Source: a virus. From it: a stretch of 30,170 nucleotides of DNA. Under the pieces are notes generated by a model, which saw nothing but the letters and a program-made list of their open reading frames with translations, had not been told where the DNA came from and did no database searches. A program made the translations under genes and the position numbers. The stretch spans positions 1-30,170 of the IMG/VR virus record IMGVR_UViG_3300007555_000410; one strand, given 5' to 3'. Below, piece after piece: positions 1 to 18,408 of this stretch (position 1 is its first letter; every line of letters starts with the position of its first letter).

Positions 1-2
1 AC

Positions 3-509
3 TTTGTTACAGGAGGGTTCATAGATAGAATAGGTATAGATGGTACTTTTCCTAAAGTAACAGCAGACACTAATATTCACGAAGCATTTCCTTTAGCAGG
101 ATTCTTTAGATATCCTATGTCAAAAGCCTGCCCTAATAAATGTACATTAATGAAAGGTTATCAAGAAGTTACTCCCGGGCAACATTACGCTTCATTTAAT
201 GACGGTACTAATAGCTGGGGATCTAGCCACCCAAGAAGAATGCCAGTAGAAGAAGTATTCACTCAGGTTCATCACTTTAAATGGGATAGTACATGTTTAA
301 CTAGAATGTTAGAAGTTGCTGAAATAAAAAAAGATTACGCATTCTCTAAGGAGTACAGTAAAATGTATAGAGCTATTGCAAGAACAGATTGGAAAATAGA
401 TATAACTAAACCCGAATATTTAGTTGCTAATTTAAAAGAAAATTCGTATATTGAATATAAAGACTACCCACACTGGGATGAATTACGTAAATTAATAATA
501 ACAATATGA
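3..509 (+). CDS. Glycosyltransferase family 2-like protein, C-terminal part (cut by window edge)
   Basis: The frame is open from the left edge, so the gene begins upstream of the window; the Met at 117 is probably internal. About 168 residues are visible. The stretch 'GGFIDRIGIDGTF' followed by a run ending in 'VHHFKWDSTCLTRM' resembles the C-terminal half of family-2-type glycosyltransferases common in phage and marine bacterial glycan clusters, where a His-Phe-Lys-Trp segment precedes a helical tail. The nucleotide-sugar site would lie in the missing N-terminal half, so donor and acceptor cannot be judged. Its stop overlaps the next start (ATGA), suggesting translational coupling into the long operon that follows. 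The family call rests on pattern memory of the C-terminal motif and is moderate. Confidence 0.55.
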   Translation, partial: FVTGGFIDRIGIDGTFPKVTADTNIHEAFPLAGFFRYPMSKACPNKCTLMKGYQEVTPGQHYASFNDGTNSWGSSHPRRMPVEEVFTQVHHFKWDSTCLTRMLEVAEIKKDYAFSKEYSKMYRAIARTDWKIDITKPEYLVANLKENSYIEYKDYPHWDELRKLIITI

Positions 510-712
510 GTGCAAAAATCGACAAAGAAGTATTAGAAGCTGAAAAAGTTCTAATCGAAGAAAGAAAAACTAAAGCGTTAGAGAAGATCGCTGTATCATT
601 AGATGCTCTAACTGTATGGTTTGAAGAAATCGACAAAGAAGACTGGGACGGAAGAATACAGTTTTACTTATCAGAATGGCATAATAATCTAACTGAAGGC
701 AAGGACAAATAA
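506..712 (+). CDS. Small charged helical protein, unknown function
   Basis: Sixty-eight residues. It is rich in Glu and Lys, with a probable amphipathic or coiled-coil N-terminal half (about residues 4-35) and a short aromatic C-terminal part containing 'WFEEIDKEDWDGR'. No signal peptide, membrane segment or recognisable catalytic motif is visible. The start overlaps the upstream stop by 4 nt (ATGA), and its TAA shares one base with the next ATG (TAATG). This tight packing and its normal codon use argue that it is a real gene rather than a chance ORF. It could be an accessory subunit of a neighbouring glycosyltransferase, but nothing in the sequence shows that. I do not recognise the family. 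Confidence 0.7.
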   Translation: MSAKIDKEVLEAEKVLIEERKTKALEKIAVSLDALTVWFEEIDKEDWDGRIQFYLSEWHNNLTEGKDK

Positions 713-2112
713 TGGCAGTACATAAACTCGGAGTAATTGTACCTTACAGAGACAGGTACGATCATCTCTTGAAGTTTAAAATGCTTATCCAAGCTAAGTT
801 ATATGGAGCAAAAATTCCTTATGAACTAATAGTAGTAGAGCAAGACGATAGTCAATCTTTCAATAGAGGTAAACTTTTAAACATAGGATTTCAAGAGGCA
901 GAAAAACTAGGATGTGATTATGTCGTATTTCACGACGTAGATATGTTACCTAAGAAAGTGGACTATTCTTACGCTGATCACCCTGTACATTTAGCTACAC
1001 AAGATATACCGTTTGAGGAATACTTTGGAGGCATAACAATGTTTCCAGTAGAAGACTTTAAAAAGATAAATGGTTTTTCTAATAGGTATTGGGGATGGGG
1101 ATTTGAAGATGATGACTTACTGCATAGATGTAGACTTAAAGGAATTAAGCTAGACGAGCTTCCTCTAAATGATGCTGGCCCTAACACAGCAGCTTTAAAA
1201 TTAAACGGAGTTAGTTCTTATGTTGAAGTTCCTAATAGGATTAGAACCAGAGGTGATTTTTCTATACATATTTCATTAGAACCTAAAGGTTATACATTAG
1301 ACTCTAATAAGAGAGAAGATAAGTACGTAGCCTTTGGCATACCAGGTTTTGACTTTAATATAATGTATACGAGTTTTAGGAGGTTTGCTGTTGAGTTTTT
1401 TGATAGCAAAAAGAACCACCATTTTATATACTCTAATATAGTACCTAATGTCAAGACTACGTTAACTTTTGTGTATAATAAAGAGAAAAACACTGCTTCA
1501 TTATACCAAAATGCTAAACACATAGGTACGGAGGTATTAAAAAATCCTATGAGACTATACGATAAAGCAGGTAAAGCTTATATAGGATGTACAGACCCAG
1601 ATAGAGAAGAAGATAATAACTTTTTCAAAGGGTATATTAATACCTATGCTGTATGGAATAAAGCATTAACGTATGAAGAAATAGTTACTGTTCAAAACAA
1701 CAAATACTTTGGATTAGCAGATAACTTTGAAAGCTACCAAAGTGCTGGTAATTTAGTATCATATGGAGACGCTAAATTTATAAAAGAGTATAAGTTAATC
1801 GATATAGCTAAGCTAGAGGAGCATAGTCAAATAGTAGACTGTGAAGTTGTTCAATACGACTTACCTAAACATAGAGTACTTAAAGTACCATTCAGAAGAA
1901 CTAGTGATTACAAGACCTTAGATCACGAGGATAATGGATTCTTGACAACAGGATGGAAAGACATTACAACCAGGTATAATCAGTTAAAGTTCATGAATGA
2001 AGTTATGTACGGATCTACTACTTTAGAACAAGATGGCTTAACTACATTAAAATATAGGATACTATCTAACTCAAATGTTAGAAATATAACCCAATTAACA
2101 GTTAAATTATGA
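712..2112 (+). CDS. GT7 (beta-1,4-galactosyltransferase-like) enzyme with a nested LamG-like domain, copy 1
   Basis: 466 residues. The N-terminal part carries hallmarks of the GT7/B4GALT fold: 'VIVPYRDR' near residue 8, the metal-binding Asp-Val-Asp at 75-77, 'YFGG' at 104-107, and 'WGWGFEDDD' at 127-135. Residues about 160-330 then look like a laminin-G/ConA-like jelly-roll: 'LNGVSSYVEVPN' at the start and 'FFKGYINTYAVWNKALTYEEI' type ending (about 304-324). After that the GT7 C-terminus resumes: His405 fits the third metal ligand, and 'DGLTTLKYRIL' (441-451) matches the B4GALT 'DGLNSLTYQVL' segment. The lectin-like domain therefore appears inserted inside the catalytic domain. In known GT7 enzymes a UDP-sugar is transferred to a terminal sugar; donor and acceptor here are unknown. 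The ATG shares one base with the upstream stop. Confidence 0.85.
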   Translation: MAVHKLGVIVPYRDRYDHLLKFKMLIQAKLYGAKIPYELIVVEQDDSQSFNRGKLLNIGFQEAEKLGCDYVVFHDVDMLPKKVDYSYADHPVHLATQDIPFEEYFGGITMFPVEDFKKINGFSNRYWGWGFEDDDLLHRCRLKGIKLDELPLNDAGPNTAALKLNGVSSYVEVPNRIRTRGDFSIHISLEPKGYTLDSNKREDKYVAFGIPGFDFNIMYTSFRRFAVEFFDSKKNHHFIYSNIVPNVKTTLTFVYNKEKNTASLYQNAKHIGTEVLKNPMRLYDKAGKAYIGCTDPDREEDNNFFKGYINTYAVWNKALTYEEIVTVQNNKYFGLADNFESYQSAGNLVSYGDAKFIKEYKLIDIAKLEEHSQIVDCEVVQYDLPKHRVLKVPFRRTSDYKTLDHEDNGFLTTGWKDITTRYNQLKFMNEVMYGSTTLEQDGLTTLKYRILSNSNVRNITQLTVKL

Positions 2113-3524
2113 AATTAGGAGTATGTGTACCTTATCGTAATAGAGAAATGCACCTTAACGAGTTTATACCTAAAGTAGGTAAGTACTTAAAAGAGCAAAA
2201 TATCGATTTTCAAATGTACTTTTGTCATCAAGTAGATGATAAATTATTCAATAGAGGAGCAACTAAAAACATTGCTGCTAAACATGCTTTCGAAGAAGGA
2301 TGTACACATATTGTATGGCATGATATAGATATGATACCTGAAAAAGGCGGTGGTGCAGACTACTCCTTTCCAGAAGATGGTCCTAGGCACATTGCTACAC
2401 AGATATCACAAATGAACTACGGTCTTAAATACCATGAGTATTTTGGTGGAGCTGTAGTATTTTCAAAAGAACAAGTAGAAGCCACTAATGGATATTCTAA
2501 TGAATATTGGGATTGGGGAATGGAAGACGATGATCTATTTTGGAGATGTAATAAAGAAGGTCTAACTAATAACACATATATTCAAGAATCTCTCACCTCT
2601 CAACCCTATAAGAGGTTTAATGGAGATAATTCATTTATCAAAGTACCGTTTACTAAACCTATGAGATCCCTAAACTCTAGATCACACACAGTTTCGGTAT
2701 TAATGAGAGCTAGACAGCAACCTGATAAGAACCCTATATTCTTGATCGGTAGTAACGAAAGAAAATATGTTGAATACCCAGTTATAAGGGTTAAAGGATA
2801 TGATTACGGTATTGGATTTAATAATTCTAGAGCCATTTCGTTAACGTATTGGAACAACTTTCATCAACATAACTATATGTGGGTAAAAAGATACGATGAA
2901 CAATGGACTTGGGTGACTGCTGTATTTGATTCGATGGATAGAAAATCACACTTCTACCTTAATGGCTCAGAAGTAGATACTAGAGGAGGATTCGGTTCTC
3001 AATCACCATTAGAGTTTCAAGGTAGATTAAAGAACTACGGTTCAGAGCCATGGTATATCGGTACATCACCTTCAGAACCGGATGATAGTACTATAAAATT
3101 CTTCAAAGGAGATATTGCTAAGGTGTTTGCGTGGAAAAGAGCTTTAACACCTAAAGAGGTGAGTAACTTAGAGACTACTATACCTAAAGACGAGTTAACT
3201 ATTGATATAGATTTTAAAAATCCTCAAACTGAGTTTCAAGAGTATATGACTGAAACAAAAGTAGAGGACATTAAAATACCAAACTCAATATTACCTTATA
3301 GATCTGACGGTAGATTTAGATGTTTACCTCACAAAGATGAAGGAATCGTTAACGGAAAGTTCGCAAAAGGAGAAACAACAGCAAGAAACGAGCGTAGATA
3401 TGTACTTCAAATGCAACAAGATGAAATCGATTATAAATTAGATGGAATAAACTCACTTAAATATGAACTAGTAGGTGAAGACATACTAACACCTTGGGCT
3501 AAAATGATCAATATAAAACTATGA
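2109..3524 (+). CDS. GT7 (beta-1,4-galactosyltransferase-like) enzyme with a nested LamG-like domain, copy 2
   Basis: 471 residues; a divergent paralogue of the gene just upstream, with the same architecture. Visible GT7 motifs are 'GVCVPYRNR' (4-12), Asp-Ile-Asp at 72-74, 'YFGG' at 111-114 and 'WDWGMEDDD' at 134-142. A LamG-like jelly-roll spans about 168-355, opening with 'FNGDNSFIKVPF' and closing with a segment containing 'FFKGDIAKVFAWKRALTPKE'. The GT7 tail returns with His408 (candidate metal ligand) and 'DGINSLKYELV' (445-455), ending in an 'INIKL' strand as copy 1 ends in 'LTVKL'. ATGA overlaps at both ends point to coupled translation. Two copies in tandem suggest two related but distinct linkages or acceptors; that is inference. 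Confidence 0.85.
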   Translation: MKLGVCVPYRNREMHLNEFIPKVGKYLKEQNIDFQMYFCHQVDDKLFNRGATKNIAAKHAFEEGCTHIVWHDIDMIPEKGGGADYSFPEDGPRHIATQISQMNYGLKYHEYFGGAVVFSKEQVEATNGYSNEYWDWGMEDDDLFWRCNKEGLTNNTYIQESLTSQPYKRFNGDNSFIKVPFTKPMRSLNSRSHTVSVLMRARQQPDKNPIFLIGSNERKYVEYPVIRVKGYDYGIGFNNSRAISLTYWNNFHQHNYMWVKRYDEQWTWVTAVFDSMDRKSHFYLNGSEVDTRGGFGSQSPLEFQGRLKNYGSEPWYIGTSPSEPDDSTIKFFKGDIAKVFAWKRALTPKEVSNLETTIPKDELTIDIDFKNPQTEFQEYMTETKVEDIKIPNSILPYRSDGRFRCLPHKDEGIVNGKFAKGETTARNERRYVLQMQQDEIDYKLDGINSLKYELVGEDILTPWAKMINIKL

Positions 3525-4894
3525 CATCAGAAGAAGTAAAAGGGAAGTTAGATAAAGTAGGCTGTGGTATGTGTCTTGCAAAATGGACACAATCTACTAT
3601 CCACCTGTCTATGGGTATGACTCATTCTTGCCATCACCCTTCTCCTCATAAAATAAAAGAAGCAGAAATAAAACGTAATCCAACAGCTCTTCACAATACT
3701 AAATTTAAAAAATTTAAGAGGAAAGAGATGCTTGAAGGTAAAAGACCTGAAGAGTGTAATTACTGTTGGAACGTAGAAGATAACTCTAACTCATTTTCAG
3801 ATAGAGTATTTAAATCTTCAGAGCCTTGGTCTATCAAAAGTTATGATGATATCGTTAAGGCTAACTGGAGAGATGATTTTAATCCTCGCTACGTAGAGGT
3901 ATCTTTTTCAAATACATGTAATTTTAAATGTGCTTACTGTGGTCCACAATTCTCATCTAAATGGGTTGATGAAATTGAGAAGCATGGAGCATATCCAACT
4001 TCTACCAAATTTAACGGTATAGAACAATTAAGAGCGAAAGGTGAAATGCCGTATAAGCACTCCGAGCATAATCCTTACGTAGATGCATTTTGGAAATGGT
4101 GGCCAGATTTATACAGAGATCTACATACATTCAGAATAACTGGAGGAGAGCCTCTACTTGCGAAGGATACCTTTAAGGTATTAGACTATATAATCGAACA
4201 AGAAGAACCTAACACAGAGTTAGCTCTATCAATTAATACTAATCTTGGAGTACCCGATGCTTTAATTGATAAGTTTATTGAAAAAGCAAAAGTCATATGT
4301 GAAAACGATAAGGTAAAAGAATTAGTAGTATTTACATCTGTCGAAGCTACTAAGTCACAAGCTGAATATACTAGGTATGGACTGGATTATGATAAATTCT
4401 GGGTAAATGTAGAAAAGATACTTACTGAATTACCTAAAGTAACGATTAATGTTATGGCTACTTTTAATGCTTTATCTGTTTTTACTTACGGAGAGTTAGT
4501 AGATAAGATATTTGAGATTAAAAAGAAGTACCACAATGGTCAGAGATACAGTATTTCAGCTATTCAACTAGATACTTCGTACTTAAGGTGGCCTAATCAC
4601 CTTTCAGTTCGTATATTGGAAGAAGAGCATAAGGAACTTATACTCGAAGCTGCAAAGAAAGCTTTATACTATGGTCAGAAAGAGTTTAGTCACGAGGCAT
4701 ATGGTTTTACAAATGTTGAGATACAAAAGATAAAGCGAATATACGATTATTCGAAAGCTCATAGTGCTCTTTACGATAAAGAAAAGAATAGAGAAGACTT
4801 TGTAATATTTGTTGATGAATTAGATAAGAGAAGAGGAACTAATTTCTTAGAGACTTTTCCTAAATTAGATAAAATGTATGCTAAATATAAGTAG
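3521..4894 (+). CDS. Twitch-domain radical SAM protein, copy 1
   Basis: 457 residues. The radical SAM [4Fe-4S] motif CxxxCxxC is at Cys133, Cys137 and Cys140 ('CNFKCAYC'), with the SAM-binding 'GGEP' at about 208-211. An N-terminal block with Cys18, Cys37, Cys79 and Cys82 ('ECNYCW') looks like a twitch-type auxiliary cluster placed before, not after, the core, as in the family called twitch domain-containing radical SAM proteins. Members presumably cleave SAM to a 5'-deoxyadenosyl radical; substrates are largely unknown. It follows two GT7-LamG genes (ATGA overlap) and precedes a stand-alone LamG-like gene, so a sugar or glycoprotein substrate is plausible. No peptide-precursor gene typical of RiPP systems is visible nearby. 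Confidence 0.87.
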   Translation: MTSEEVKGKLDKVGCGMCLAKWTQSTIHLSMGMTHSCHHPSPHKIKEAEIKRNPTALHNTKFKKFKRKEMLEGKRPEECNYCWNVEDNSNSFSDRVFKSSEPWSIKSYDDIVKANWRDDFNPRYVEVSFSNTCNFKCAYCGPQFSSKWVDEIEKHGAYPTSTKFNGIEQLRAKGEMPYKHSEHNPYVDAFWKWWPDLYRDLHTFRITGGEPLLAKDTFKVLDYIIEQEEPNTELALSINTNLGVPDALIDKFIEKAKVICENDKVKELVVFTSVEATKSQAEYTRYGLDYDKFWVNVEKILTELPKVTINVMATFNALSVFTYGELVDKIFEIKKKYHNGQRYSISAIQLDTSYLRWPNHLSVRILEEEHKELILEAAKKALYYGQKEFSHEAYGFTNVEIQKIKRIYDYSKAHSALYDKEKNREDFVIFVDELDKRRGTNFLETFPKLDKMYAKYK

Positions 4895-5465
4895 TGGTAA
4901 TCCATGGGTCTTTTGGCCAAGTCATATATGTGATACCTTTCCAGAATATCCTGCAAATAAAGTACTTACTGGGTTGAATCCTTTTGAAGTATATGTAGAT
5001 ATGAAAATCAAGAAGGTAGAAGGTATTATAGGAACTCTTTTTACATTGCTTCCTCACTATACAGCAATCGATATATACGAAGGTAGGTTACTGTTTACGA
5101 TGATGAATGAGGATAAGAAAACAGAGTACTGGGATTTACCTTTTGCCGTATTTGACGATGTAAGGTTAAAAATTACATGGAAGCACATTCCAAACCAAAG
5201 TTTTACGGTATTTATTAATAGTAGAGAGGTACACAAGGTTGATTTGACTGAAAAGGCATTTGCAACTGAAATGGATCCTCATATAATATTTGGGGCAGGA
5301 AACTTCCCTAAAAATGGATATAATTTAAACTATACTGATATAGAGTTGTACGAATTTAAGGTTACGCAAGAAGATAAGTTACTTTGCCATCACACCTTTG
5401 AAGAGTATATATACGATAAATCAGTTGATTTAACTGGAGATTGTAACTTTATGAATAAAATATAA
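4878..5465 (+). CDS. Stand-alone LamG/ConA-like (jelly-roll) protein
   Basis: 195 residues, predicted to be all-beta. The pattern of alternating strands, the segment 'VRLKITWKHIPNQSFTVFIN' (about residues 95-114) and the later 'IIFGAG...NYTDIELYEFKV' resemble the LamG-like domains nested in the two GT7 enzymes upstream. No catalytic motif, signal peptide or membrane segment is visible. The start overlaps the upstream radical SAM gene by 17 nt, and the TAA overlaps the next ATG by one base, so it lies exactly between two paralogous radical SAM genes. It may act in trans as a sugar-binding partner of the radical SAM or GT proteins. The fold call is from strand pattern only. Confidence 0.6.
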   Translation: MLNISSGNPWVFWPSHICDTFPEYPANKVLTGLNPFEVYVDMKIKKVEGIIGTLFTLLPHYTAIDIYEGRLLFTMMNEDKKTEYWDLPFAVFDDVRLKITWKHIPNQSFTVFINSREVHKVDLTEKAFATEMDPHIIFGAGNFPKNGYNLNYTDIELYEFKVTQEDKLLCHHTFEEYIYDKSVDLTGDCNFMNKI

Positions 5466-6988
5466 TGGCAGATCAGAACTTAGTAAAATGGAGAACAGAA
5501 CATTTAGATTCTGTTAGTGAAAGTTTTTGTGCTGCAAAATGGTACAATGCATCTTTACATTTAGGACATGGGTTTACTAACTCCTGTCACCTACCTTTAC
5601 CTCATCCAATAGATTTAGAAGAGATTAAAACTAATCCTTCAGCATTACATAATACTGCTTTCAAAAAGAAGATACGTAAAATGATGCTTGAAGGTGTTAG
5701 ACCAGCAGAGTGTTCATATTGTTGGAAAGTAGAAGATATAGGAAACGACTCAATAGGAGATAGAGTTTTTAAGAGTAGAATATACTCTGATGAAGATATA
5801 GCTGAACTAGCTGAACTGCCATGGGATTATGACATACCTTTAAAGACCGTAGAAGTATCTTTTGATAGAACTTGTAACTTTGCTTGTTCGTATTGTAATA
5901 CTGGGTACTCAACTACATGGGCTAAGGACATAGAAGAAAACGGTCCTTATCAGAAATTTAAAACAACATCAGCAGGAGCATATCATTCAGATGGTTCATG
6001 GGCAGATATCTTTGGTAAGAATAATAAAGATAATCCATATGTAGATGCATTTATAGAATGGTGGCCAACACTTGCTCCTGGCTTGCAGGAACTTAGAGTA
6101 ACCGGTGGAGAACCTTCTGCATCGTTTAACTTCTGGAAGTTTTTAGAGACTATGCAGAAAACACCTGCACCTAATCTTAGACTAGCTGTTAACTCTAATC
6201 TTGGAGTACATGATAAGTTAATTAATAAGTTAATTGATATGTCTAATACACTCCCTATTAAAGAGTTTGATTTATATACTTCTTGTGAAGCATTTGGTAT
6301 ACAAGCAGAATATATTAGAGATGGGTTAGTATGGGATGTATGGAGAAATAATCTAGTTAAAGTAATAGAAGAAGGAAACTTCAGACAAGTAATTTGTATG
6401 ATGACTATCAACTCATTATGTCTATATTCTATAACTGAATTTATGGATGATATGTTCGTACTTAAGGAAAAATACGGTATGAATAACCCAGGTATTGATT
6501 TGAACATACTTAGATGGCCAGCATTTATGTCGCCATTAAACTTACCAGATAGTGAAAAAAAGAAACTACATAAAAAATTAGCTGATTGGTACGAAATTAA
6601 AAAAGATCATCCATTGATGATGGATCATGAAAAAGCTCAAATCGAAAGATTAATAGACTATATTGATGTAGTAGAGCAAGGTCATGTAGAAACAGAAGAA
6701 GATAAAGAAAAACATTATCATGATTTTAAATCTTTTTATGAACAATATGATAAAAGAAAAGGACATGACATTAGGGAAGCTTTCCCCGACTTAGTTGAAT
6801 GGTACGACACTATAGAAGTAGATCAATCAATACCTGATGTTAAAGTAAACGACGGTAGGATTACTCACTTCGAATCAGGAGAATATAAACCAGATATAGG
6901 AAAGAAAAAACAACAAACATTACCACCTGCAATAGCAGAGAGAAATAAAAAAAGCAAAGGGAAAGTAAAATGGCAAAAGATCCTATAA
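5465..6988 (+). CDS. Twitch-domain radical SAM protein, copy 2
   Basis: 507 residues; a paralogue of the gene at 3521. Radical SAM Cys137, Cys141 and Cys144 ('CNFACSYC') and 'VTGGEP' at about 212-217 are intact. The N-terminal auxiliary-cluster cysteines are at 22, 41, 83 and 86 ('ECSYCW'), the same arrangement as copy 1. The shared surrounding residues 'LHNTxFKKxxRKxMLEG' and 'NPYVDAFxxWWP' show common ancestry. Compared with copy 1 it has an extra lysine-rich, low-complexity C-terminal tail (roughly residues 470-507, including 'IGKKKQQTLPP'), which overlaps the next gene by 19 nt. Substrate unknown; a glycan or glycoprotein modification is inferred from context. Confidence 0.87.
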   Translation: MADQNLVKWRTEHLDSVSESFCAAKWYNASLHLGHGFTNSCHLPLPHPIDLEEIKTNPSALHNTAFKKKIRKMMLEGVRPAECSYCWKVEDIGNDSIGDRVFKSRIYSDEDIAELAELPWDYDIPLKTVEVSFDRTCNFACSYCNTGYSTTWAKDIEENGPYQKFKTTSAGAYHSDGSWADIFGKNNKDNPYVDAFIEWWPTLAPGLQELRVTGGEPSASFNFWKFLETMQKTPAPNLRLAVNSNLGVHDKLINKLIDMSNTLPIKEFDLYTSCEAFGIQAEYIRDGLVWDVWRNNLVKVIEEGNFRQVICMMTINSLCLYSITEFMDDMFVLKEKYGMNNPGIDLNILRWPAFMSPLNLPDSEKKKLHKKLADWYEIKKDHPLMMDHEKAQIERLIDYIDVVEQGHVETEEDKEKHYHDFKSFYEQYDKRKGHDIREAFPDLVEWYDTIEVDQSIPDVKVNDGRITHFESGEYKPDIGKKKQQTLPPAIAERNKKSKGKVKWQKIL

Positions 6989-8019
6989 ATAGAAGGTATA
7001 TTAGAGTTAAAGAACCATGGGGTGGTGGACACACACCTTATGATACAGGATTCGGCAATAGGTTACTACACTGGGATGCCTGTTATGTTTTAGAGAACGC
7101 TTCTACTACAGACCATTTCTTACAACTAGAACACAAGTATTGGCATGAAACCGAGTACTTAGAATTCCCAGCAGAAAAGATTTATAAACTAGAAGGTGAT
7201 GACGATGAAGTAACTGATTGGTTAGCTAATTACGATTTCAATTACGATACTAAAGAGATTACTAAATTGCCAGTAATAGGCAACGAAGAAGTGGATAAGT
7301 TTCTGAACACTTCTGATTACATAGACTACGATCTTCCAGAAAATAGATATGTTGTGGATTTTGATTGGTCCTGTATCGATAAGATTTTAGCTAGAGCAGA
7401 TGAGAAAGAAATTCCTACTGGACTTCACCGTGTAAAAATTAAAGACCACCAACTAAGATCTGCTATCAGACAAATAGCTACAGGGTGTGTAGGTCTTCAT
7501 ATAAGAAGAGGAAACGGAGTATACAAAACAAATAAAAATTATAAAGAACTTCCTGATAGTGTTAGAGATAATATTCAATATACACAAGTAGATGATACAA
7601 TTTACAAGTACTGGGAAGATAGCAAATACGCAGCTTTAATAAAAGAAATACTAGAACAAACACCAAATCAAAAGTTTTATATTAGTTGTGACTTATTAGA
7701 AAAGGAATATATACATCTTAAAACAAAATTTAATGCAAGAATATATACAAGAAGAGATGTAATTAATTCACTACCTTCTTACTTAACAAAGAATGTAAAC
7801 TTAGAAGATGTTGAGTGCTCTAAAAGAATTGCACTAGAAAGCGTAATAGATATGATGTGTTTAGCTAACTCTAATTTTATAGTTGGTGCCCCACATTCAA
7901 CATGGTTATCATCAATTCAGAGAATGAGACCAGTACCTTATAATTTTATAAACGAAGGTAAAGATAGAATATTGAGAGAGTATGTAAAGTCATTAAACAC
8001 TTATTCGACATTAGTATGA
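6970..8019 (+). CDS. Fucosyltransferase-like GT-B glycosyltransferase
   Basis: 349 residues. Two motifs of the fucosyltransferase superfamily (GT11/GT23/GT65/GT68 type) are visible: an N-terminal 'GFGNRLLHW' at 27-35, like the G-x-G-N-[QR]-L loop, and 'GLHIRRGN' at 175-182, like the H-x-R-R-G-D donor-binding segment. 'FYISCDLLEKE' in the second half resembles the 'SD' strand of the same fold, and 'IVGAPHSTWLSS' near the C-terminus fits the late S/T-rich donor loop. It probably transfers a deoxy-sugar from a GDP-sugar, but the donor is inferred. The start overlaps the upstream stop by 19 nt; the stop overlaps the next ATG (ATGA). No fucose-synthesis gene (gmd/fcl) is certain in the window. Confidence 0.65.
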   Translation: MAKDPINRRYIRVKEPWGGGHTPYDTGFGNRLLHWDACYVLENASTTDHFLQLEHKYWHETEYLEFPAEKIYKLEGDDDEVTDWLANYDFNYDTKEITKLPVIGNEEVDKFLNTSDYIDYDLPENRYVVDFDWSCIDKILARADEKEIPTGLHRVKIKDHQLRSAIRQIATGCVGLHIRRGNGVYKTNKNYKELPDSVRDNIQYTQVDDTIYKYWEDSKYAALIKEILEQTPNQKFYISCDLLEKEYIHLKTKFNARIYTRRDVINSLPSYLTKNVNLEDVECSKRIALESVIDMMCLANSNFIVGAPHSTWLSSIQRMRPVPYNFINEGKDRILREYVKSLNTYSTLV

Positions 8020-8612
8020 GTTTTGGATTAGTAGGAACATTTGAGAAACAAGTTGCTGAGTTCTATGGAGCTGATTACGGTGTAGCAGTAGACTGTTGTA
8101 CACACGGATTAGAATTGGCTTTGAGATATACAAAGGCAGAAGAAATCTTAGTTCCTTATCATACTTATCTATCCGTACCTATGTTAGCAGATAAGCTAAA
8201 TATTAAACGTACATTTATTCACGATGAATGGGAAGATTATTACTATATTACAAATAATATTATAGATTCAGCCGTTTATTGGAAAAAAAATTCGTATATT
8301 AAAGGTACGTTCATGGTACTTTCTTTTCAATTCCAAAAGCATTTAAGTTTAGGAAGAGGAGGTATGATACTAACAGACAATAGGGAGGCATCTCATAAAT
8401 TAAGATGCATGACTTATGACGGTAGAGACAATTCAAACGGTCCATGGGCCCAACAAGATATAGAAGAAATAGGATATCATTATTATATGACTCCTGAGGT
8501 AGCAACTCAAGGATTGCATTCTTTAAACGATGCAGTAGCTAAGGTACCAAAGAAGTGGTCATATAAAAATTACCCTAATCTAAATAGTTTTAAAGTATTT
8601 AAGAATGGTTAA
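8016..8612 (+). CDS. Miniature DegT/DnrJ/EryC1/StrS-family aminotransferase
   Basis: 198 residues, about half the usual 370-400. The PLP-dependent sugar aminotransferase pattern is clear: 'FEKQVAEFYGADYGVAVD' then 'CTHGLELAL' (28-36), 'VPYHTYLS' (46-53), 'DSA' (84-86, fitting the Asp that binds the PLP ring nitrogen), 'SFQFQKHLSLGRGG' (103-116) with Lys108 as candidate Schiff-base lysine, 'DGRD' (135-138), and 'YMTPEVATQGLHSL' (157-170). It lacks the roughly 150-residue C-terminal small domain and is shortened between the Thr loop and the Asp. The reading frame is clean and overlaps its neighbours (4 nt upstream, 8 nt downstream), so this is a compact form rather than an obvious frameshift. 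It would place an amino group on a keto-sugar or keto-cyclitol; whether it is active is open. Confidence 0.8.
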   Translation: MSFGLVGTFEKQVAEFYGADYGVAVDCCTHGLELALRYTKAEEILVPYHTYLSVPMLADKLNIKRTFIHDEWEDYYYITNNIIDSAVYWKKNSYIKGTFMVLSFQFQKHLSLGRGGMILTDNREASHKLRCMTYDGRDNSNGPWAQQDIEEIGYHYYMTPEVATQGLHSLNDAVAKVPKKWSYKNYPNLNSFKVFKNG

Positions 8613-9615
8613 CGTAAAAAACGAATACGGTAAATTAAAAGAAGTAATAGTCGGTAGAGTAGATAATGCAAACCAACCATTTCACGGTACTGACTTACAT
8701 GCTATTAATTATGCAGATAAGAACTCAATACCTTCATCAGAAAGAGGTTTATTTGATCCTCAAGTGTATGAAGAGTCTGTTGAAGACCTAGATTTATTAG
8801 CAAAAGCATTAGAAGATTTCGGAGCGAAAGTTCACCGACCTAATTTGCTAGATACGAAAAAAACTGTGTCTAACGGCTATTGGGAAACAGATCAATACTA
8901 TACATTCTGCCCTAGAGATACTATGACAGTCATTGGAGATACCCTTATAGAATCACCTATGACGTTAAGATCTAGACAGTTTGAGAACGATGCATATAGA
9001 GAGCTGTTTATTGATTATATGGACAAAGGAACCAAATGGGTTTGCGCTCCTAAACCGAGATTGACTGATGATTCGTATCAAAGAGATGACTTAGATAAAT
9101 TAACATTAACTGAAGTAGAACCTGTATTCGATGCAGCTAATATTCTCAGACATAATGACGATATTCTTTACTTAAATTCTAATACAGGAAACAAGAAAGG
9201 GTATACTTGGTTAAAGAATATTCTAGGAGATAAATATAAGGTCCACTTCTTAGAAAATATGTATTCGTATTCTCATATTGATTCTACGATTGCTATTCTT
9301 AGAGACGGTCTGGCACTTGTAAATCCGTCAAGAATAAACGAAAGTAATATGCCAGAACTCTTTAAAGGTTGGGATATTATATATTCTCCTCCGATGGTAG
9401 ATATTGGATATAAAGGAGTATTAAGAGCATCTGAATGGGTAGGTATAAATCTAATCTCATTAGACGAGAATACAGTATGTGTGGATAATAGACAAACAGA
9501 ATTAATTAACGAACTAAAAAAATATAACATAGAAGCATTAGACTTAAAGATTAGACACTCTAGAACATTAGGAGGTTCTTTTCACTGTTGTACTGCTGAT
9601 ATGGTAAGAGACTAA
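8605..9615 (+). CDS. Amidinotransferase of the AGAT/StrB1 family
   Basis: 336 residues. It matches L-arginine:glycine (AGAT) and L-arginine:inosamine-phosphate (StrB1) amidinotransferases along its length: 'LKEVIVGRVDNAN' (11-23), 'PRDTMTVIGDTLIESPM' (103-119), 'RSRQFENDAYR' (122-132), 'KWVCAPKPRL' (144-153), 'EPVFDAANILR' (172-182), 'SHIDST' (223-228) and 'GGSFHCCTAD' (323-332). The catalytic triad aligns as Asp176, His224 and Cys328, with the Asp-to-His spacing within one residue of human AGAT. These enzymes move the amidino group of arginine to an amine, giving a guanidino product and ornithine. Sitting directly behind a DegT/StrS-type aminotransferase (8-nt overlap), a guanidino-sugar or cyclitol product is a reasonable inference; glycine as acceptor remains possible. 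Confidence 0.92.
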   Translation: MVNVKNEYGKLKEVIVGRVDNANQPFHGTDLHAINYADKNSIPSSERGLFDPQVYEESVEDLDLLAKALEDFGAKVHRPNLLDTKKTVSNGYWETDQYYTFCPRDTMTVIGDTLIESPMTLRSRQFENDAYRELFIDYMDKGTKWVCAPKPRLTDDSYQRDDLDKLTLTEVEPVFDAANILRHNDDILYLNSNTGNKKGYTWLKNILGDKYKVHFLENMYSYSHIDSTIAILRDGLALVNPSRINESNMPELFKGWDIIYSPPMVDIGYKGVLRASEWVGINLISLDENTVCVDNRQTELINELKKYNIEALDLKIRHSRTLGGSFHCCTADMVRD

Positions 9616-9617
9616 TT

Positions 9618-10523
9618 ATGAAATTTACATTAATAGGCGGCGCAGGATTTATTGGAAGTCAACTAATGACTTATCTGCCACAATTTGGACACGAAGTAAA
9701 AGTTATTGATAACTTAACATATGGGCAAAACTTTGGTTACCCTGATGAAGTGAAGTTAATTAATGACGATGTAAAGAATATAGGTAGATATGAGACTGAA
9801 CTTAATGAAGCAGATTACGTTTTCTATATGGCATCACCTAGGTTAAATGAAATAAATGACTTAGAAGAACCATTACCTCATCTTGCAGGATTAAAAACAA
9901 CCCTTGATATTTGCCAAAACAACAATACTCAGGTAATTTTCTTTAGTAGCTGTTCTGTTTACGGCTACAGAAAGAATATGGTTAATGAATTATCTACTAC
10001 TAAAGTAACCTCTTTATACTCTAAGCTAAAAATAGATTCTGAAAATCTACTTAAAAAATACGATGAAGATAGGTTTAAAATAGTTAGACTATCAACTTTA
10101 TTTGGCACATCAGGAGTAGGTAGAAATGATTTACTTGTTAATAACTTTGTTAAGGATGTGTTATTTAGCCAATACTTAGAAGTATATGATCCAGAAGCAT
10201 GGAGACCTAATATCAATATACATACTCTCTGCGGGGTACTAAAAGAACTTGCAGAAAAAAATGCTTTCCAAAGTATATTAAATATTGGGTATAATATTTT
10301 GAATACCACTAAACAGGAATTAATACTTAAAATGGTAACGAGAAATAAATTAGATTTTACTGTTAAGTATTACTCTCCTGATGATAGTAGGAGCTACAAA
10401 GTAGACTTTAGTAAAATGGAAGAGCTGATTGATTTAGAACCTATACAATATGTAGACGGAATAGACCAATTAGTAAGTACTTTCAGAGAGGTTATAATAG
10501 AACAAAACCAAGACAATGAGTAA
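9618..10523 (+). CDS. NAD-dependent epimerase/dehydratase (extended SDR), copy 1
   Basis: 301 residues. The Rossmann motif 'GGAGFIG' is at 7-13, followed by the acidic end of beta-2 and 'IDNLTYG' (30-36), typical of NDP-sugar epimerases. 'FFSSCSVYG' (108-116) carries the catalytic Ser, and 'YSKLK' (134-138) is the YxxxK active site. The family interconverts or dehydrates nucleotide sugars in the cytoplasm; the exact reaction cannot be read. It starts 2 nt after the amidinotransferase and overlaps the next epimerase by 8 nt. Its C-terminal half is somewhat divergent, with 'AWRPNINIHTLCGVL' fitting the usual 'R.fi.v.D.a' segment. Confidence 0.88.
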   Translation: MKFTLIGGAGFIGSQLMTYLPQFGHEVKVIDNLTYGQNFGYPDEVKLINDDVKNIGRYETELNEADYVFYMASPRLNEINDLEEPLPHLAGLKTTLDICQNNNTQVIFFSSCSVYGYRKNMVNELSTTKVTSLYSKLKIDSENLLKKYDEDRFKIVRLSTLFGTSGVGRNDLLVNNFVKDVLFSQYLEVYDPEAWRPNINIHTLCGVLKELAEKNAFQSILNIGYNILNTTKQELILKMVTRNKLDFTVKYYSPDDSRSYKVDFSKMEELIDLEPIQYVDGIDQLVSTFREVIIEQNQDNE

Positions 10524-11535
10524 AGAAACTATACTAATTACAGGTGTTGCAGGACTACTAGGAAGTAGGTTAGCTGAATACTACAGAAAAAACTACCCAG
10601 ATACCAAAATAGTGGGTATAGATAATTTATCAGGAGGATTTAGAGAGAACGTTCACAAGGATACTATCTTTTATGAGACTGATTTAGTGAGTGAAAACAT
10701 CCAAGGTATCTTTTCAGCACATCAGCCGGATTATGTTTACCATTTTGCTGCATATGCCGCAGAAGGTCTCTCCCCTTTTATAAGAACATATAATTATAAT
10801 AACAATGTTGTTGCTACTGCAAAGATAGTTAATGAATGTATAAGAGCTAACGTAAAGAGGTTAGTATTTACGTCTTCTATGGCAGTATACGGTCACGGTT
10901 GGGAAGGTAAAAGACCTTTTGATGAAGGAGATATTCCTAAACCTATAGACCCGTATGGAATTGCAAAATACGCCTGTGAGATGGATATTCAAGTTGCTGG
11001 AGAACAGCACGGATTAGACTGGTGTATTATTAGACCTCATAATGTCTACGGTATAGGGCAGAACATATGGGATAAATATAGGAACGTTCTCGGTATCTGG
11101 ATGTATCAATACATGAATGGACAAGCAATGACAATATTTGGAGATGGAACTCAGACTAGAGCATTTAGTAATATTGAAGACTGTTTAGAACCTCTATATA
11201 AAGCTTCTAAGATAAAAGAAGCATCAAAACAGATTATTAACTTAGGTGGAATTAAATTTCACAGTATTAACGAATCTAATGCTATTCTTAGAGATGTTAT
11301 TAAAAACGGTAAAGTTGAGCATGTAGAAGGAAGACATGAAGTTAAAGATGCTTATCCAACCTGGGCAAAGTCACAGGAGATATTAGGATACGAATATACC
11401 GTAGAGTTAAACGAAGGTTTAAGTGAAATGTGGGATTGGGCACAACAGCAACCAAAAAGAAAAAGATTCTTTTGGGAAAATTATGAATTAGATAAAGGAC
11501 TATATAGTTTCTGGAAAGATGAACCTAGTATTTGA
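10516..11535 (+). CDS. NAD-dependent epimerase/dehydratase (extended SDR), UDP-glucose 4-epimerase-like, copy 2
   Basis: 339 residues. NAD-binding 'GVAGLLG' is at 10-16 with 'GIDNLSGG' at 34-41, 'HFAAYAAEG' at 76-84, 'FTSSMAVYG' at 118-126, and the YxxxK pair Tyr147/Lys151 ('YGIAK'). 'IIRPHNVYGIGQN' and 'QTRAFSNIEDCLEP' match UDP-sugar 4-epimerases and related C4 epimerases better than dehydratases. It likely acts on an NDP-hexose in the cytoplasm, supplying one of the donors for the GTs around it. The C-terminal 20 residues are rich in Trp, Phe and Lys. The stop lies 17 nt inside the next gene. It is not a recent duplicate of the preceding SDR. Confidence 0.9.
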   Translation: MSKETILITGVAGLLGSRLAEYYRKNYPDTKIVGIDNLSGGFRENVHKDTIFYETDLVSENIQGIFSAHQPDYVYHFAAYAAEGLSPFIRTYNYNNNVVATAKIVNECIRANVKRLVFTSSMAVYGHGWEGKRPFDEGDIPKPIDPYGIAKYACEMDIQVAGEQHGLDWCIIRPHNVYGIGQNIWDKYRNVLGIWMYQYMNGQAMTIFGDGTQTRAFSNIEDCLEPLYKASKIKEASKQIINLGGIKFHSINESNAILRDVIKNGKVEHVEGRHEVKDAYPTWAKSQEILGYEYTVELNEGLSEMWDWAQQQPKRKRFFWENYELDKGLYSFWKDEPSI

Positions 11536-12862
11536 AAATTTAGAAACATCTCTTAACCTAGCAGGTGAAGATAAAAATGGCAATGAAAGAATTTGCTTGT
11601 CTCCGTATGCTAATAGGTTAAATATACTGAAGACAGAACACAGAAGCCTTCATGAAAAGAGAACTGAAGATTGGATATTTTTCCAATCAGGAGAAGATAA
11701 GATAAAATGGAATATTAATACATACTCTGTAGAAGATGTAGTTAAAGACCCTAGCATTAAATATATTATCCCAGTAGGAGTTCATGAATCTCCTCTAACT
11801 TGGGCAGGATACGCAGGAAAATATAGCACTATATTTGATCTAGTTAGCGATACATACCTTAAGCATTTACGAGAAGGAAGAGCATACATATTATTTGATA
11901 ATACTCTTGAGGGCTACCATACTGATTGGCTATTTGATTTCTTTTACGATGAAGCGGTTAGATTAAGTATTGATCCGAGTAACATAATACTTACAACAGG
12001 AAATGCTCAACTAGAACAGAGAGCTGAAGAGTGGGAAAAAAAGACAGGTAAAAAATGTATTCAGACACTTGGGTATACACATTTTGAATTTGATGTATAC
12101 CTTAACATAGACCACTATAATAGGAAAGGTCAAAATATTCCTACTTATGAAGACCACCTTAAATATAAAGATAACAATCCACTATTAATTAAACCTTATA
12201 ACTTCCTAAACCGTAAACCTAGGAAGCATAGAATAGCACTTTTTAATAAACTATTTCATGCAGGGTTACTTCCTGATGGATTAATAAGTATGAACCCCTG
12301 GAATGATGAAGTACTTCACGAAGCTGTAGACATAGACGGCTGGTCTCCTGAAGTACAGCAGTTAGAACATTCACATCAGTTTACCCCAATGCGTTGGGAT
12401 GGAACAGACAACTTAGCTAACCCTGGAGATAAGATTGCAAGACTAAATGAAAAGTCAATGTTAAATTCATGGTGTACTATAGTTAGTGAAGCTCAATTTG
12501 ACGATTCTCAACAGTCTGTATTTTTATCAGAAAAAGTATTTAAACCTATAGCATGTAGTCATCCATTTCAAATATTAGGAGCTAAAGGTTCATTGAAAGA
12601 ACTAAAAAAACTAGGTTACCTTACTTTTGATAATTTATTTGATGAATCTTATGATGAGTTAGATAATATAGAAAGATTAGATGCTATAGTAGAAAACATT
12701 AACTCTTTAGCTGATAATAACGAATGGCATAATCATTTTCGCTGGATGAAATCTAGATTGAAATATAATAGAAACGTTTTAACATTTAATGCTCTTTTTA
12801 AACCTCCAAAAGGATTTCACAAATTTAATAGATTATGCAATACAGCATCAGAAAAAGTTTAA
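11519..12862 (+). CDS. GT10-like phage glycosyltransferase, paralogue A
   Basis: 447 residues. The C-terminal half carries a block shared with two later genes: 'FLNRKPRKHR' (229-238), 'VSEAQ' about 14 residues before 'FLSEKVFKPI' (335-344), 'HPFQILG' (348-354), 'GYLTFDNLFDESYD' (366-379). The layout Glu ... S/T-E-K ... G-x-P-x-x-x-G resembles the donor-binding C-terminal motif of GT10 alpha-1,3-fucosyltransferases, where Y-x-T-E-K is typical. The N-terminal half shows no motif I recognise. This paralogue is the most divergent of the three: it lacks the 'RPNGTS' N-terminal segment of the other two. It overlaps its neighbours by 17 and 28 nt. The family assignment is by motif layout only. Confidence 0.6.
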   Translation: MNLVFENLETSLNLAGEDKNGNERICLSPYANRLNILKTEHRSLHEKRTEDWIFFQSGEDKIKWNINTYSVEDVVKDPSIKYIIPVGVHESPLTWAGYAGKYSTIFDLVSDTYLKHLREGRAYILFDNTLEGYHTDWLFDFFYDEAVRLSIDPSNIILTTGNAQLEQRAEEWEKKTGKKCIQTLGYTHFEFDVYLNIDHYNRKGQNIPTYEDHLKYKDNNPLLIKPYNFLNRKPRKHRIALFNKLFHAGLLPDGLISMNPWNDEVLHEAVDIDGWSPEVQQLEHSHQFTPMRWDGTDNLANPGDKIARLNEKSMLNSWCTIVSEAQFDDSQQSVFLSEKVFKPIACSHPFQILGAKGSLKELKKLGYLTFDNLFDESYDELDNIERLDAIVENINSLADNNEWHNHFRWMKSRLKYNRNVLTFNALFKPPKGFHKFNRLCNTASEKV

Positions 12863-13782
12863 AAGTAAATAAAGACTCTAAGTTAATTATAGCTTTAGGA
12901 GATTCTTTTGTCGAAGGTCAAGGAGCTGTATCGAAAGAGACATGGGAGAAATATGATTGGTCAGAATCTAAAATGACTATGATTAATCCTATGTCTGATG
13001 AATTTAATTCCTTAAGAGAAGAGGAACATAATAATGCTTTCGTTAATGTATTATGTAAAAAACATTTTCCTGATTATACTCCTATTAACTTAGGATATAG
13101 AGGTAACGGAAACAGAGCAACAGTAAAAGCTCTAACCACTCTTCATCCAGACTTAAACTTAGGAGTAGCAAAAGAAAAAATAGTAATATTCTTCGTAGGT
13201 CAAATGGTTAGGTTTGACTTTTTTAATAAAGGTCTGAACAATAGTCATAACTATTTTCATACAATATGGCCAACTATAACTGATAGCGAAGAAATTGGTC
13301 TACAGAACTTATGGAGTGGATATGCTACTGAAGTATACTCACCTGTAACTGAAGCTTTAGAAGTTATTTCAAACATTGTCGAAGTACAAAACTGGTGCAA
13401 ACTTAATAATGCAAAGTTGCTTTTAGTTAATTCTTTTACTCATGCTTTTGAAAGAGAAAAACTTATAGACGCTCTTACAGACTTTACACCAGGCTTTAAA
13501 GACGAAGATGGACTCATTGTAAACTTAGTAGACACGATAGATTGGAGCAACTTAGCTATGCTACCAAAAGGAAGAAAGCAAATGGTAGATGTACTATTAG
13601 ATAGGGAAAATAGACATGATTTAGCAGGAAATGATCACCTATGGTACTTCTGGCCTAGAGAACTTAAAAACTTTACTCCTAAAGGGCTAATGACACCTTG
13701 TTCTCATCCATCACCTAAAGGTCATCAACTCATAGCTAAAGTATTAGCAAAAGTAATTAAAGGAAAGAAGTATGAGCAATAA
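12835..13782 (+). CDS. SGNH/GDSL-type hydrolase or acyltransferase-like protein
   Basis: 315 residues. Block I 'ALGDSFVEGQG' (20-30) puts a candidate nucleophile at Ser24; 'NLGYRGNGNR' (85-94) fits the Gly and Asn oxyanion blocks; 'CSHPSPKGHQLIA' (289-301) resembles the C-terminal catalytic His block, with His291 the likely base. The usual Asp three residues before that His is not present (Pro288), so activity is uncertain. Such proteins often remove or add acetyl groups on polysaccharides. No signal peptide is visible, so it probably acts in the cytoplasm. The start lies 28 nt inside paralogue A, the longest overlap in the window; there is no better downstream Met before the GDSF block. Confidence 0.72.
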   Translation: MQYSIRKSLKVNKDSKLIIALGDSFVEGQGAVSKETWEKYDWSESKMTMINPMSDEFNSLREEEHNNAFVNVLCKKHFPDYTPINLGYRGNGNRATVKALTTLHPDLNLGVAKEKIVIFFVGQMVRFDFFNKGLNNSHNYFHTIWPTITDSEEIGLQNLWSGYATEVYSPVTEALEVISNIVEVQNWCKLNNAKLLLVNSFTHAFEREKLIDALTDFTPGFKDEDGLIVNLVDTIDWSNLAMLPKGRKQMVDVLLDRENRHDLAGNDHLWYFWPRELKNFTPKGLMTPCSHPSPKGHQLIAKVLAKVIKGKKYEQ

Positions 13783-15145
13783 GATTGAAAATAGTTACCT
13801 ACCTATACCTGATACCTGGGACGGATTGGACTGGCTGCAGATTAACCTCAGTGAAGAAGGTTATGATTCTATTTTTGCTGGCCCTAGACCTAACGGTACT
13901 TCAAAGACTTGGTATAAAAAAGAAACAGGTACTTTTCACTACCCTTATAACTTAGGCATCTGGAATTTTTTTGGAGAAACAGGAGAGTGGTTTGATGCTG
14001 AAAAATTAGAACTACAGCATCGTCCTCATATTATAGATCCGAATCACTGTTTTTATAAAAGTAAAGATAAACTATCAGGCGCTAATCATTTATATATTAT
14101 AACTGTTTTTAATCCTCAATTCTTTGAATTAAATAGAGAATTAGGATTTAGTTTAATCGATCAACAATATCAAAATGATATAAGAAACGGTGATGCTGCA
14201 GTTGTACTATTTTACCCATGGGAAGGTTATTCCGGAATGGAAGGAAATGACGATTTTAAAATAGCAGAAGAATGGAGGAAAAAAGCTCATTTTCCTAAAG
14301 GATCAGTTCACTTCTTTACTGGAAACTTAGAAGCAGACGGACACGATGATATTAAAAACTCAGGAATAAAAGTACACCCTTATAATACTTTTGATAATTG
14401 GAACGCAGATAAATTTGAGGAGCCATTAATTGATTTTATTCCTAACGATAATAAATTTTTATACCTTAGTTATAATAGAAATCCTAGAGGACCTAGAATT
14501 TATTTAGGAGCTAAGTTAATTGAATATAACTTACTCGATAAAGGTTTAGTTAGTTTAGGTAAACCAGATTGGTGGACTCCAAATAATGTATTAAGAGCAG
14601 ATGGTATCCGAGATCAAGAGTATGCAAAGCTAAATAAACAACTGCCGATAGAGATTGGTAAAAAATTATTCTTTAACCTAGCCTGTAATATAGATTTACA
14701 AGATTTTCAATCAACCTTTTGTTCTATAATTACTGAAACTTTAGTAGAGAACAAAACACTATTCATATCAGAAAAAACATGGAAAGCTATACAAGTAGGA
14801 CACCCGTTCTTTCTTTTAGGAAACCCAGGTACTCTAAATTACTTAAGAAATAGAGGATATAAGACCTTTGATCGATGGTGGGATGAAAGTTACGACCATG
14901 TAACGGAATACAGATTAAGAGTAGAAATGATTCTTAAAGAAGTAGATAGATTTAGCAAAAAAAGTAAAGAAGAGCTGATAGAGATAAGAAAAGAAATGCA
15001 TGAAGTGTTAGAGTTCAACAAACAACTTCATTATAGAAATATGATTCAGAAGTGGGGATACGGAACAAGCGAAAAACCAGAACAAGTCTTAAGAGAACTT
15101 TGGGGAATATACGATAAACTAGGCAATGGAAAAGATATTATGTAG
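13772..15145 (+). CDS. GT10-like phage glycosyltransferase, paralogue B
   Basis: 457 residues. Shared family motifs: N-terminal 'YDSIFAGPRPNGTSKTW' (31-47), 'YLSYNRNPRGPR' (231-242), 'ITETL' before 'FISEKTWKAI' (331-340), 'GHPFFLLGNPGTL' (343-355) and 'GYKTFDRWWDESYD' (362-375). The S-E-K block preceded by a Glu and followed by the H-P-F-x-x-x-G loop fits a GT10-like donor site. The N-terminal half is closely related in layout to the next gene, indicating tandem duplication. It overlaps the SGNH gene by 11 nt upstream and paralogue C by 20 nt downstream. Donor and acceptor are unknown. No membrane segment is evident. Confidence 0.62.
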   Translation: MSNKIENSYLPIPDTWDGLDWLQINLSEEGYDSIFAGPRPNGTSKTWYKKETGTFHYPYNLGIWNFFGETGEWFDAEKLELQHRPHIIDPNHCFYKSKDKLSGANHLYIITVFNPQFFELNRELGFSLIDQQYQNDIRNGDAAVVLFYPWEGYSGMEGNDDFKIAEEWRKKAHFPKGSVHFFTGNLEADGHDDIKNSGIKVHPYNTFDNWNADKFEEPLIDFIPNDNKFLYLSYNRNPRGPRIYLGAKLIEYNLLDKGLVSLGKPDWWTPNNVLRADGIRDQEYAKLNKQLPIEIGKKLFFNLACNIDLQDFQSTFCSIITETLVENKTLFISEKTWKAIQVGHPFFLLGNPGTLNYLRNRGYKTFDRWWDESYDHVTEYRLRVEMILKEVDRFSKKSKEELIEIRKEMHEVLEFNKQLHYRNMIQKWGYGTSEKPEQVLRELWGIYDKLGNGKDIM

Positions 15146-18352: not shown

Positions 18353-18366
18353 AGTTGCTTTTTAGC

Positions 18367-18374: not shown

Positions 18375-18408
18375 TCATATATTGTTATAACAGATTAATA
18401 CAGTTTCA

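Follow-up and report, generated by a model that had tools for sequence, protein, structure and literature searches.

Can a lectin-like domain reside within the catalytic domain of a glycosyltransferase, and if so, what might it do there? This question is raised by a 30,170-nucleotide stretch of viral DNA (IMG/VR record IMGVR_UViG_3300007555_000410, positions 1 to 30,170; hereafter the window), in which two overlapping open reading frames (ORFs), called P1 and P2, encode proteins related to glycosyltransferase family 7 (GT7). A preliminary description, prepared from the letters of the DNA alone, had noted in both ORFs a LamG-like block inside a GT7 domain. This observation is borne out by Pfam matches, by structural models, by matches of the joined halves, and by uninterrupted homologs. 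Indeed, it is near certain that in each protein a LamG/pentraxin-like jelly-roll interrupts a GT7 catalytic domain of the B4GALT type. The parts of the two genes are listed below, with conservation given for 188 distinct homologs.

712..2112, plus strand: P1, GT7 glycosyltransferase with nested LamG domain, 466 amino acids (ORF, Pfam, AlphaFold2 model, superposition)
712..1164, plus strand: first half of the P1 GT7 domain, residues 1-151, holding the DxD motif (D75, D77), the G-loop YFGG, and W-G-F-E-D-D-D
934..942, plus strand: P1 DxD motif D75-V76-D77, both D in 188/188
1096..1116, plus strand: P1 xED motif W129-G-F-E132-D133-D134-D135, with W129, E132, and D133 in 188/188
1165..1887, plus strand: P1 LamG/pentraxin-like insert, residues 152-392 (borders within a few residues)
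1888..2109, plus strand: second half of the P1 GT7 domain, residues 393-466
1924..1926, plus strand: P1 H405, the expected metal-binding C-His, in 186/188
2032..2037, plus strand: P1 D441-G442 within the DGLTTLKY motif, D in 162/188 and G in 187/188
2109..3524, plus strand: P2, second GT7 glycosyltransferase with nested LamG domain, 471 amino acids (ORF, Pfam, AlphaFold2 model, superposition)
2109..2576, plus strand: first half of the P2 GT7 domain, residues 1-156
2577..3293, plus strand: P2 LamG/pentraxin-like insert, residues 157-395 (borders within a few residues)
3294..3521, plus strand: second half of the P2 GT7 domain, residues 396-471, with H408

The start codon of P2 overlaps the stop codon of P1 by 4 bases (ATGA). 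Above curated Pfam cut-offs, P1 and P2 respectively match GT7N (residues 2-84 and 2-79), GT7C (98-151 and 93-155), and Laminin_G_3 (166-324 and 184-352). A phmmer search of PDB sequences likewise matches residues ~1-153 of P1 and P2 (best E 2.5e-29 and 3.3e-27) to B4GALT1 and B4GALT7. Neither protein has an NCBIfam match at E values up to 0.01, and PHROGs yield only weak partial matches.

AlphaFold2 models were built on alignments of 86 (P1) and 65 (P2) natural sequences. Their mean predicted local distance difference test (pLDDT) scores are 94.4 and 91.3, and the predicted template modelling (pTM) scores of 0.89 and 0.83 suggest a fixed arrangement of domains in the models. When superposed by VIA-align 2, the P1 model aligns with B4GALT1 (1nmm_B) over the range 1..466 (Z 26.7, root-mean-square deviation [rmsd] 2.0, 208/272 aligned), and the P2 model aligns with 1tvy_A over 1..471 (Z 27.6, rmsd 1.9, 215/272 aligned). 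Foldseek alone produces shorter GT7 alignments of about 150-185 columns. The P1 insert superposes on the LamG domain of PAPP-A (8hgg_C; Z 21.9, 196 aligned, model residues 158..387), on 4dqa (Z 21.6), and on PTX3 (8s50_A, Z 19.5), and the P2 insert does likewise on 7y5n_C (Z 21.6) and 7zl1_A (Z 20.4). The jelly-roll strand order is the same as in the PAPP-A LamG domain, the pentraxins (PTX3, CRP), 4dqa, and Laminin_G_3 (Z 17-22), but here the domain is nested in an enzyme. A circular permutation of the LamG domain, with a start-like strand placed last (as considered from two insert-bearing proteins, L139 and L140), was rejected because the insert superposes on pentraxins and PAPP-A in the same first-to-last range.

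Thus, superposition on B4GALT1, the check proposed in the preliminary description, finds that the C-terminal part completes the GT-A fold and that the middle is a jelly-roll in both predicted models. The block had been placed at residues 160-330. Its jelly-roll nature stands, but its extent does not: the insert is larger because strands between residues 330 and 390 complete the jelly-roll in the models, so that it covers approximately 152-392 in P1 and 157-395 in P2.

Comparisons made after excision of the insert agree with this arrangement. The two halves of P1, joined with LamG removed, match B4GALT1 (2ae7_A) in a single stretch, 3-222 (E 1.7e-30, 109.6 bits), whereas intact P1 scores 105.4 bits and its best stretch covers 3-148. 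Joining the halves adds little to the score; the point of the comparison is continuity. Joined P2 matches B4GALT1 (6fwu, 6fwt) over 2-168, passing through the C-His region, and human B4GALT7 (4irp) over 2-216; its remaining B4GALT matches stop at 153-156. In the P1 family profile (86 sequences), the last 47 positions align with the end of B4GALT1 (...SDGLNSLTYQVL...TQITVDI), a match that is weak when taken alone (7.3 bits). The P2 profile has no second C-terminal segment in the two B4GALT alignments listed.

The extent of the family was assessed with the best 80 of 266 viral relatives of P1, plus 53 relatives of P2, plus the loci of the window itself. These include 197 distinct GT7 ORFs, from which seven were excluded (six open at an edge and one fused ORF of 914 amino acids) to leave 190 full-length rows, 95 nearer P1 and 95 nearer P2. 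Mean identities, per-type percentages (95 rows each), and the profile by which ORFs of the genome contigs were scored (see below) were made on these 190 rows. Removal of two cut copies of other rows (L031, and L135, which is the P1 of the window cut at a locus edge) leaves the 188 distinct homologs, among which the two proteins of the window are counted. The insert is present in all 188, with 190-251 residues between P1 positions 152 and 393. No complete ORF shorter than 380 amino acids occurs among the P1 and P2 hits, although insert-bearing queries favor insert-bearing relatives.

Uninterrupted enzymes do exist elsewhere. A search of genome contigs with the P1 alignment produced 55 relatives, including 31 uninterrupted bacterial GT7s of 192-419 amino acids (complete ORFs with profile E < 1e-30). 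In all 31, the profile match leaves at position 140-154. It resumes at or before position 410 in 21 of them, the two parts being separated by -7 to 12 residues (median 1; a value below zero means that the matches overlap), and at 420-439 after 15-43 residues in nine; the remaining protein (L150) has no match to the C-terminal part of the profile. When 16 uninterrupted proteins were aligned with the two proteins of the window and two insert-bearing proteins from metagenome-assembled genomes (MAGs), one clean gap was evident, situated between ...G-(I/L)-... and an R-x-G-x-F-x-x-L-x-H-like segment.

Among viruses, a search with the single protein from L141 found no uninterrupted GT7, and an alignment query revealed at least 532 relatives, the best 80 of which were used. 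The viral GT7 ORFs with a stop codon (n = 136) comprise 48 of no more than 300 amino acids (204-279), 87 of at least 440 (455-568), and one of 366 (L245), which is considered to be cut because its frame is open to the locus edge. After removal of identical sequences, a mixed set held 40 viral and 31 bacterial uninterrupted proteins and 118 insert-bearing proteins; open-ended ORFs, ORFs shorter than 200 amino acids, and L245 were dropped, and just 18 proteins each of P1 and P2 type were sampled. The first mixed alignment placed 18-52 residues of each uninterrupted protein in insert columns, so its tree was not used and the cores were cut out and realigned. The insert, cut at P1 positions 151-393, measures 223-331 residues (median 245). 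The remaining cores have a median length of 233, compared with 231 for whole uninterrupted proteins. C-terminal positions common to insert-bearing and uninterrupted kinds include the C-His (fractions of 0.97 and 0.93, respectively), an N (1.0 and 0.93), and, in the DG motif, the G (0.99 and 1.0). Uninterrupted bacterial and viral GT7s (e.g., L145, L151, L152, and L191) share core length and the motifs on both sides of the junction, but they lack the insert, which follows the xED helix and precedes the strand that bears the metal-binding His.

Fourteen hand-picked large viral records display the same two size classes. Eleven carry insert-bearing loci, with GT7C and Laminin_G_3 matches in the same frames of 464-498 amino acids (two or three per record), and the other three, chosen for uninterrupted loci, have their best GT7C matches in frames of 220-239 amino acids. 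Weaker GT7C matches in other frames were disregarded, and two of the records (G003 and G004) are near-duplicates.

These data also bear on whether there is a true insertion at all. If LamG and a tail had simply been fused to the C-terminus of a GT7 enzyme, the last 75 residues would lie outside the GT-A fold. The C-terminal parts of P1 and P2, when searched alone, match no Pfam family, as might be expected of such a fusion. However, the superpositions cover the full range, joined P1 matches B4GALT1 in one stretch, and the alignment with uninterrupted GT7s is continuous with a single clean gap. We consider a fusion to be extremely improbable, and the insertion proposed in the preliminary description is upheld.

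Catalytic features are retained with very few exceptions. D75, D77, W129, E132, and D133 are kept in 188/188 homologs, Y104, R395, N423, and G442 in 187/188, H405 (H408 in P2) in 186/188, and D441 in 162/188. Expressed as GT7 features, the DxD motif, the xED base, and the C-His are found in 188, 188, and 186 of the 188 proteins, and the earlier assignment of the motifs after the insert to GT7 was sound. B4GALT1 and B4GALT7 (CAZy GT7) have the same GT-A fold, DxD, YFGG, WGxEDDD, C-His, and DGLxxLxY, but not the LamG insert. Y104 occupies what we take to be the place of bovine Tyr289, a residue whose role presumably favors UDP-Gal. This sugar nucleotide would be the likeliest donor for P1 and P2, although Y104 is no more than suggestive of beta-1,4-galactosyl transfer from it. 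By analogy with GT7 biochemistry, transfer is expected to be metal-dependent and inverting, with D133 serving as the base.

The two genes usually occur together. Of 133 loci, 120 carry a P1-P2 tandem, which amounts to 93 distinct sequence pairs; the 133 include the locus of the window and some contigs found by both the P1 and P2 scans. The other 13 loci consist of eight with P1 and a cut or fused second gene, four with P2 only, and one with P1 only. Within the 120 pairs, the genes overlap by 4 bases in 95 and by one base in 16. Some viral contigs carry three tandem GT7-LamG genes (L204, L222, L225, L228, L230, L232, and others), the third copy being upstream, and the sampled upstream copies group as a third set on the core tree. 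The longest GT7-LamG proteins of the set have 568 and 521 amino acids (L241:260-1963 and L193:1016-2578). Five insert-bearing loci reside on MAG contigs (L136-L140). Among ten neighbors examined for L136-L139, one at L138 matches a virion structural protein family and two at L139 match a phage-family radical S-adenosylmethionine (SAM) protein and a carbamoyltransferase; therefore, at least some insert-bearing MAG contigs look viral.

How often did the insertion occur? A tree of cores only was built on 107 of 189 rows. On the free tree, where three long-branch bacterial rows sit beside insert-bearing rows, the insert requires two changes. Constraining the insert-bearing rows to a single clade gives a tree that is not rejected (approximately unbiased test p-AU 0.681, likelihood 6.15 higher), and after removal of five long-branch rows (L157, L158, L163, L169, and L171) one change is enough (SH-aLRT 93). 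Because of these constrained and long-branch-free trees, one insertion followed by duplications is the simplest reading. A single insertion and then duplication of the nested gene is probable, though not proved, from these sequences. The phages' own stand-alone LamG genes are a possible source of the insert.

Such genes are found close by. The two genes that follow P2 in the window are listed here.

3521..4894, plus strand: twitch-domain radical SAM protein (NF033640)
4878..5465, plus strand: 195-amino-acid protein with a radical SAM gene on either side, probably a free-standing LamG-like relative of the insert

The 195-amino-acid protein has no Pfam match, and it matches the insert profile weakly (E 6.8e-5 in a one-sequence search); the LamG-like match is stronger for proteins in the same place in relatives. 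Of 118 loci whose sequence extends 3 kb or more beyond P2, 74 encode a stand-alone LamG-like protein (defined by a match to the insert profile or to this 195-amino-acid protein) that starts 1.35-2.7 kb past P2, and 116 have a relative of the twitch-type radical SAM protein no more than 3.5 kb after P2. In two near-duplicate contigs (those of L024 and L025; G003:148796-161609 and G004:148021-160834), 11 LamG matches are present within 13 kb beside the GT7-LamG pair.

Contractile-tail genes are located further on in the window (sheath at 21533, tube, baseplate hub, and tape measure). Between P2 and the sheath gene are two twitch radical SAM genes, a B12-binding radical SAM gene, epimerases, a UDP-sugar dehydrogenase-like gene, a short DegT-type gene, and others. 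This glycan-type cluster spans 3521-19578 and includes several proteins without any family match; its B12 radical SAM protein is KedN5-like (below the NCBIfam cut-off), and its DegT-type protein has 198 amino acids. In a related locus whose P1 and P2 are 100% identical to those of the window (L001), the gene for a protein that matches tail-fibre and baseplate PHROGs begins 4.4 kb upstream of P1. Another five proteins encoded upstream were examined there; four have no match and one matches a DNA methyltransferase family. A similarly placed protein in another locus (L009) matches tail-spike and tail-fibre families. Thus, the cluster appears to be positioned between tail-fibre-like and tail-sheath genes. 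No account of twitch radical SAM proteins in phages was found in a search of an open-access library.

What, then, might the nested domain do? The best explanation, whose chances we judge to be about even, is that P1 and P2 form an active pair of inverting GT7 enzymes, which add sugar to an acceptor on the virion (tail) or on a surface while LamG holds that acceptor. Made from overlapping genes, P1 and P2 would both be GT7 hexosyltransferases that depend on a metal, act by inversion, and belong to a glycan pathway of the phage. In their ancestor, a pentraxin-like LamG domain would have entered the GT-A domain between the xED helix and the C-His strand before the nested gene was duplicated. LamG would most likely bind the acceptor, either a glycan or a glycosylated protein, and keep it beside the catalytic pocket. 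This role is proposed because only about 12 residues separate the exit of the insert from the metal-binding His, after which comes the segment that forms the mobile acceptor-site loop in B4GALT1. The pair probably works on a single chain, one enzyme after the other, and gene position suggests that the acceptor would most likely be a tail or other virion protein. Glycans on the capsid and tail tube of Mycobacterium phages are mentioned in PMC12619734. A more elaborate mechanism, in which binding of a glycosylated chain to the nested LamG shifts the C-His strand and mobile loop, thereby coupling acceptor capture to active-site closure and making the pair processive on a phage tail glycan, is quite unlikely.

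The conservation of the insert is relevant here. P2-type inserts keep E222, P224, R227, N238-N239-S240-R241, Y256, W258, K260, R261, W266, and W268 in 91-100% of 95 rows, and a maintained surface is therefore suggested by these aromatic and polar residues. P1-type inserts keep fewer such residues (e.g., D203, G212, D214, and S221 at 95-100%).

Several observations weigh against the acceptor-holding proposal. The insert evolves faster than the core, with a mean pairwise identity of 0.31 compared with 0.54 for the N-terminal half and 0.40 for the C-terminal half. P1-type inserts have no aromatic cluster comparable to that of P2-type inserts. Given the fast evolution of the insert and the lack of this cluster in P1-type proteins, a glycan ligand shared by the two is not evident. 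The position of the cluster is weak evidence for the acceptor, as only one of six upstream proteins examined in L001 has a tail match. One P2-type protein of 396 amino acids (L050:5465-6652) stops after LamG and is without the C-terminal half and the metal-binding His, making it one of the two exceptions noted above. Finally, B4GALT1 has a Met (bovine 344) as a further metal ligand, which is a feature of that enzyme that we do not take as defining GT7. At the corresponding position 402, the phage proteins mostly have C, L, S, or V (of 188 residues, 93 are C, 30 L, 25 S, 18 V, and 6 T). The metal ligands named in the preliminary description are thus retained for DxD and His, but not for Met.

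Other explanations must be weighed against the same evidence. The acceptor of these enzymes might instead be the host surface (lipopolysaccharide or capsule), where modification would block superinfection or alter a receptor. PMC12619734 mentions temperate-phage glycosyltransferases that modify host serotype, and the cluster holds nucleotide-sugar enzymes (the epimerases and UDP-sugar dehydrogenase-like protein), but its apparent location between tail-fibre-like and tail sheath genes argues weakly for a virion acceptor. We regard a host-surface target as possible, if on the unlikely side. It is somewhat unlikely that the nested LamG is a protein-protein module that has no sugar ligand and serves to dock P1 with P2 or the enzyme with tail proteins that bear LamG. 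The tandem arrangement, with eight further loci in which the second gene is cut or fused, and the frequent 4-base overlap would suit such docking, as would the stand-alone LamG genes and the 11-LamG run that adjoin the pair. Furthermore, PAPP-A and the pentraxins, which have the nearest folds, form assemblies. However, the residues kept by P2-type inserts are of kinds common in sugar sites, which would point toward a glycan ligand. An insert that is mainly structural, tolerated because it stabilizes or spaces the fold and binding no ligand, strikes us as improbable. Its fast evolution, the 17% identity between the P1 and P2 inserts of the window (over 214 columns), and the retention of the same motifs by uninterrupted relatives would all be in keeping with a passive role. 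In contrast, every complete ORF among the P1 and P2 relatives keeps the insert (with the query bias already mentioned), and specific residues are strongly conserved in P2-type inserts.

Comparison with known enzymes places the acceptor-holding proposal in context. The GT-A common core described in PMC7185993 has three hypervariable regions, namely b3-aC, b6-b7, and the tail following b8. The GT-A fold of PGAP4, a glycosylphosphatidylinositol (GPI)-GalNAc transferase, is likewise split by an insertion, but that insertion consists of tandem transmembrane segments rather than a lectin-like domain, and the enzyme is a different one (PMC5785973). Inserted loops are present in GnT-II, as stated in PMC9296478. 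The same paper describes lectin domains that guide or support catalysis in GALNT (GT27) and MGAT4A (GT54), to which LamG is likened only in how it might work; those domains have beta-trefoil and CBM32-like folds, follow the GT-A domain at its C-terminus, and are not nested, and the lectin domain of POMGnT1 is also terminal. Thus, GT-A folds split by other insertions are known, but searches of an open-access library found no account of a GT-A catalytic domain that has a lectin-like domain nested within it. INPHARED contains no match to the proteins of the window, and in BFVD no entry identifiable as GT7 plus LamG appears among the best 50 of 467 rows with E <= 0.001, many of which are nameless. 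These results agree with the statement in the preliminary description that such an architecture is not known to have been described.

The 188 distinct phage proteins carry a lectin-like domain within the catalytic domain, not at one end of it as in GALNT, MGAT4A, and POMGnT1. Because uninterrupted relatives serve as natural controls for this nested family, a direct test of how a lectin at the active site affects acceptor choice is possible. The family also points to a widespread and little explored glycan pathway of uncultured phages. In one locus (L070:4175-6916), a P2-type GT7-LamG protein is cut just past the DG motif and fused in frame to a twitch radical SAM-like protein, yielding the 914-amino-acid ORF excluded above; the fused partner is the kind of protein that normally follows P2.

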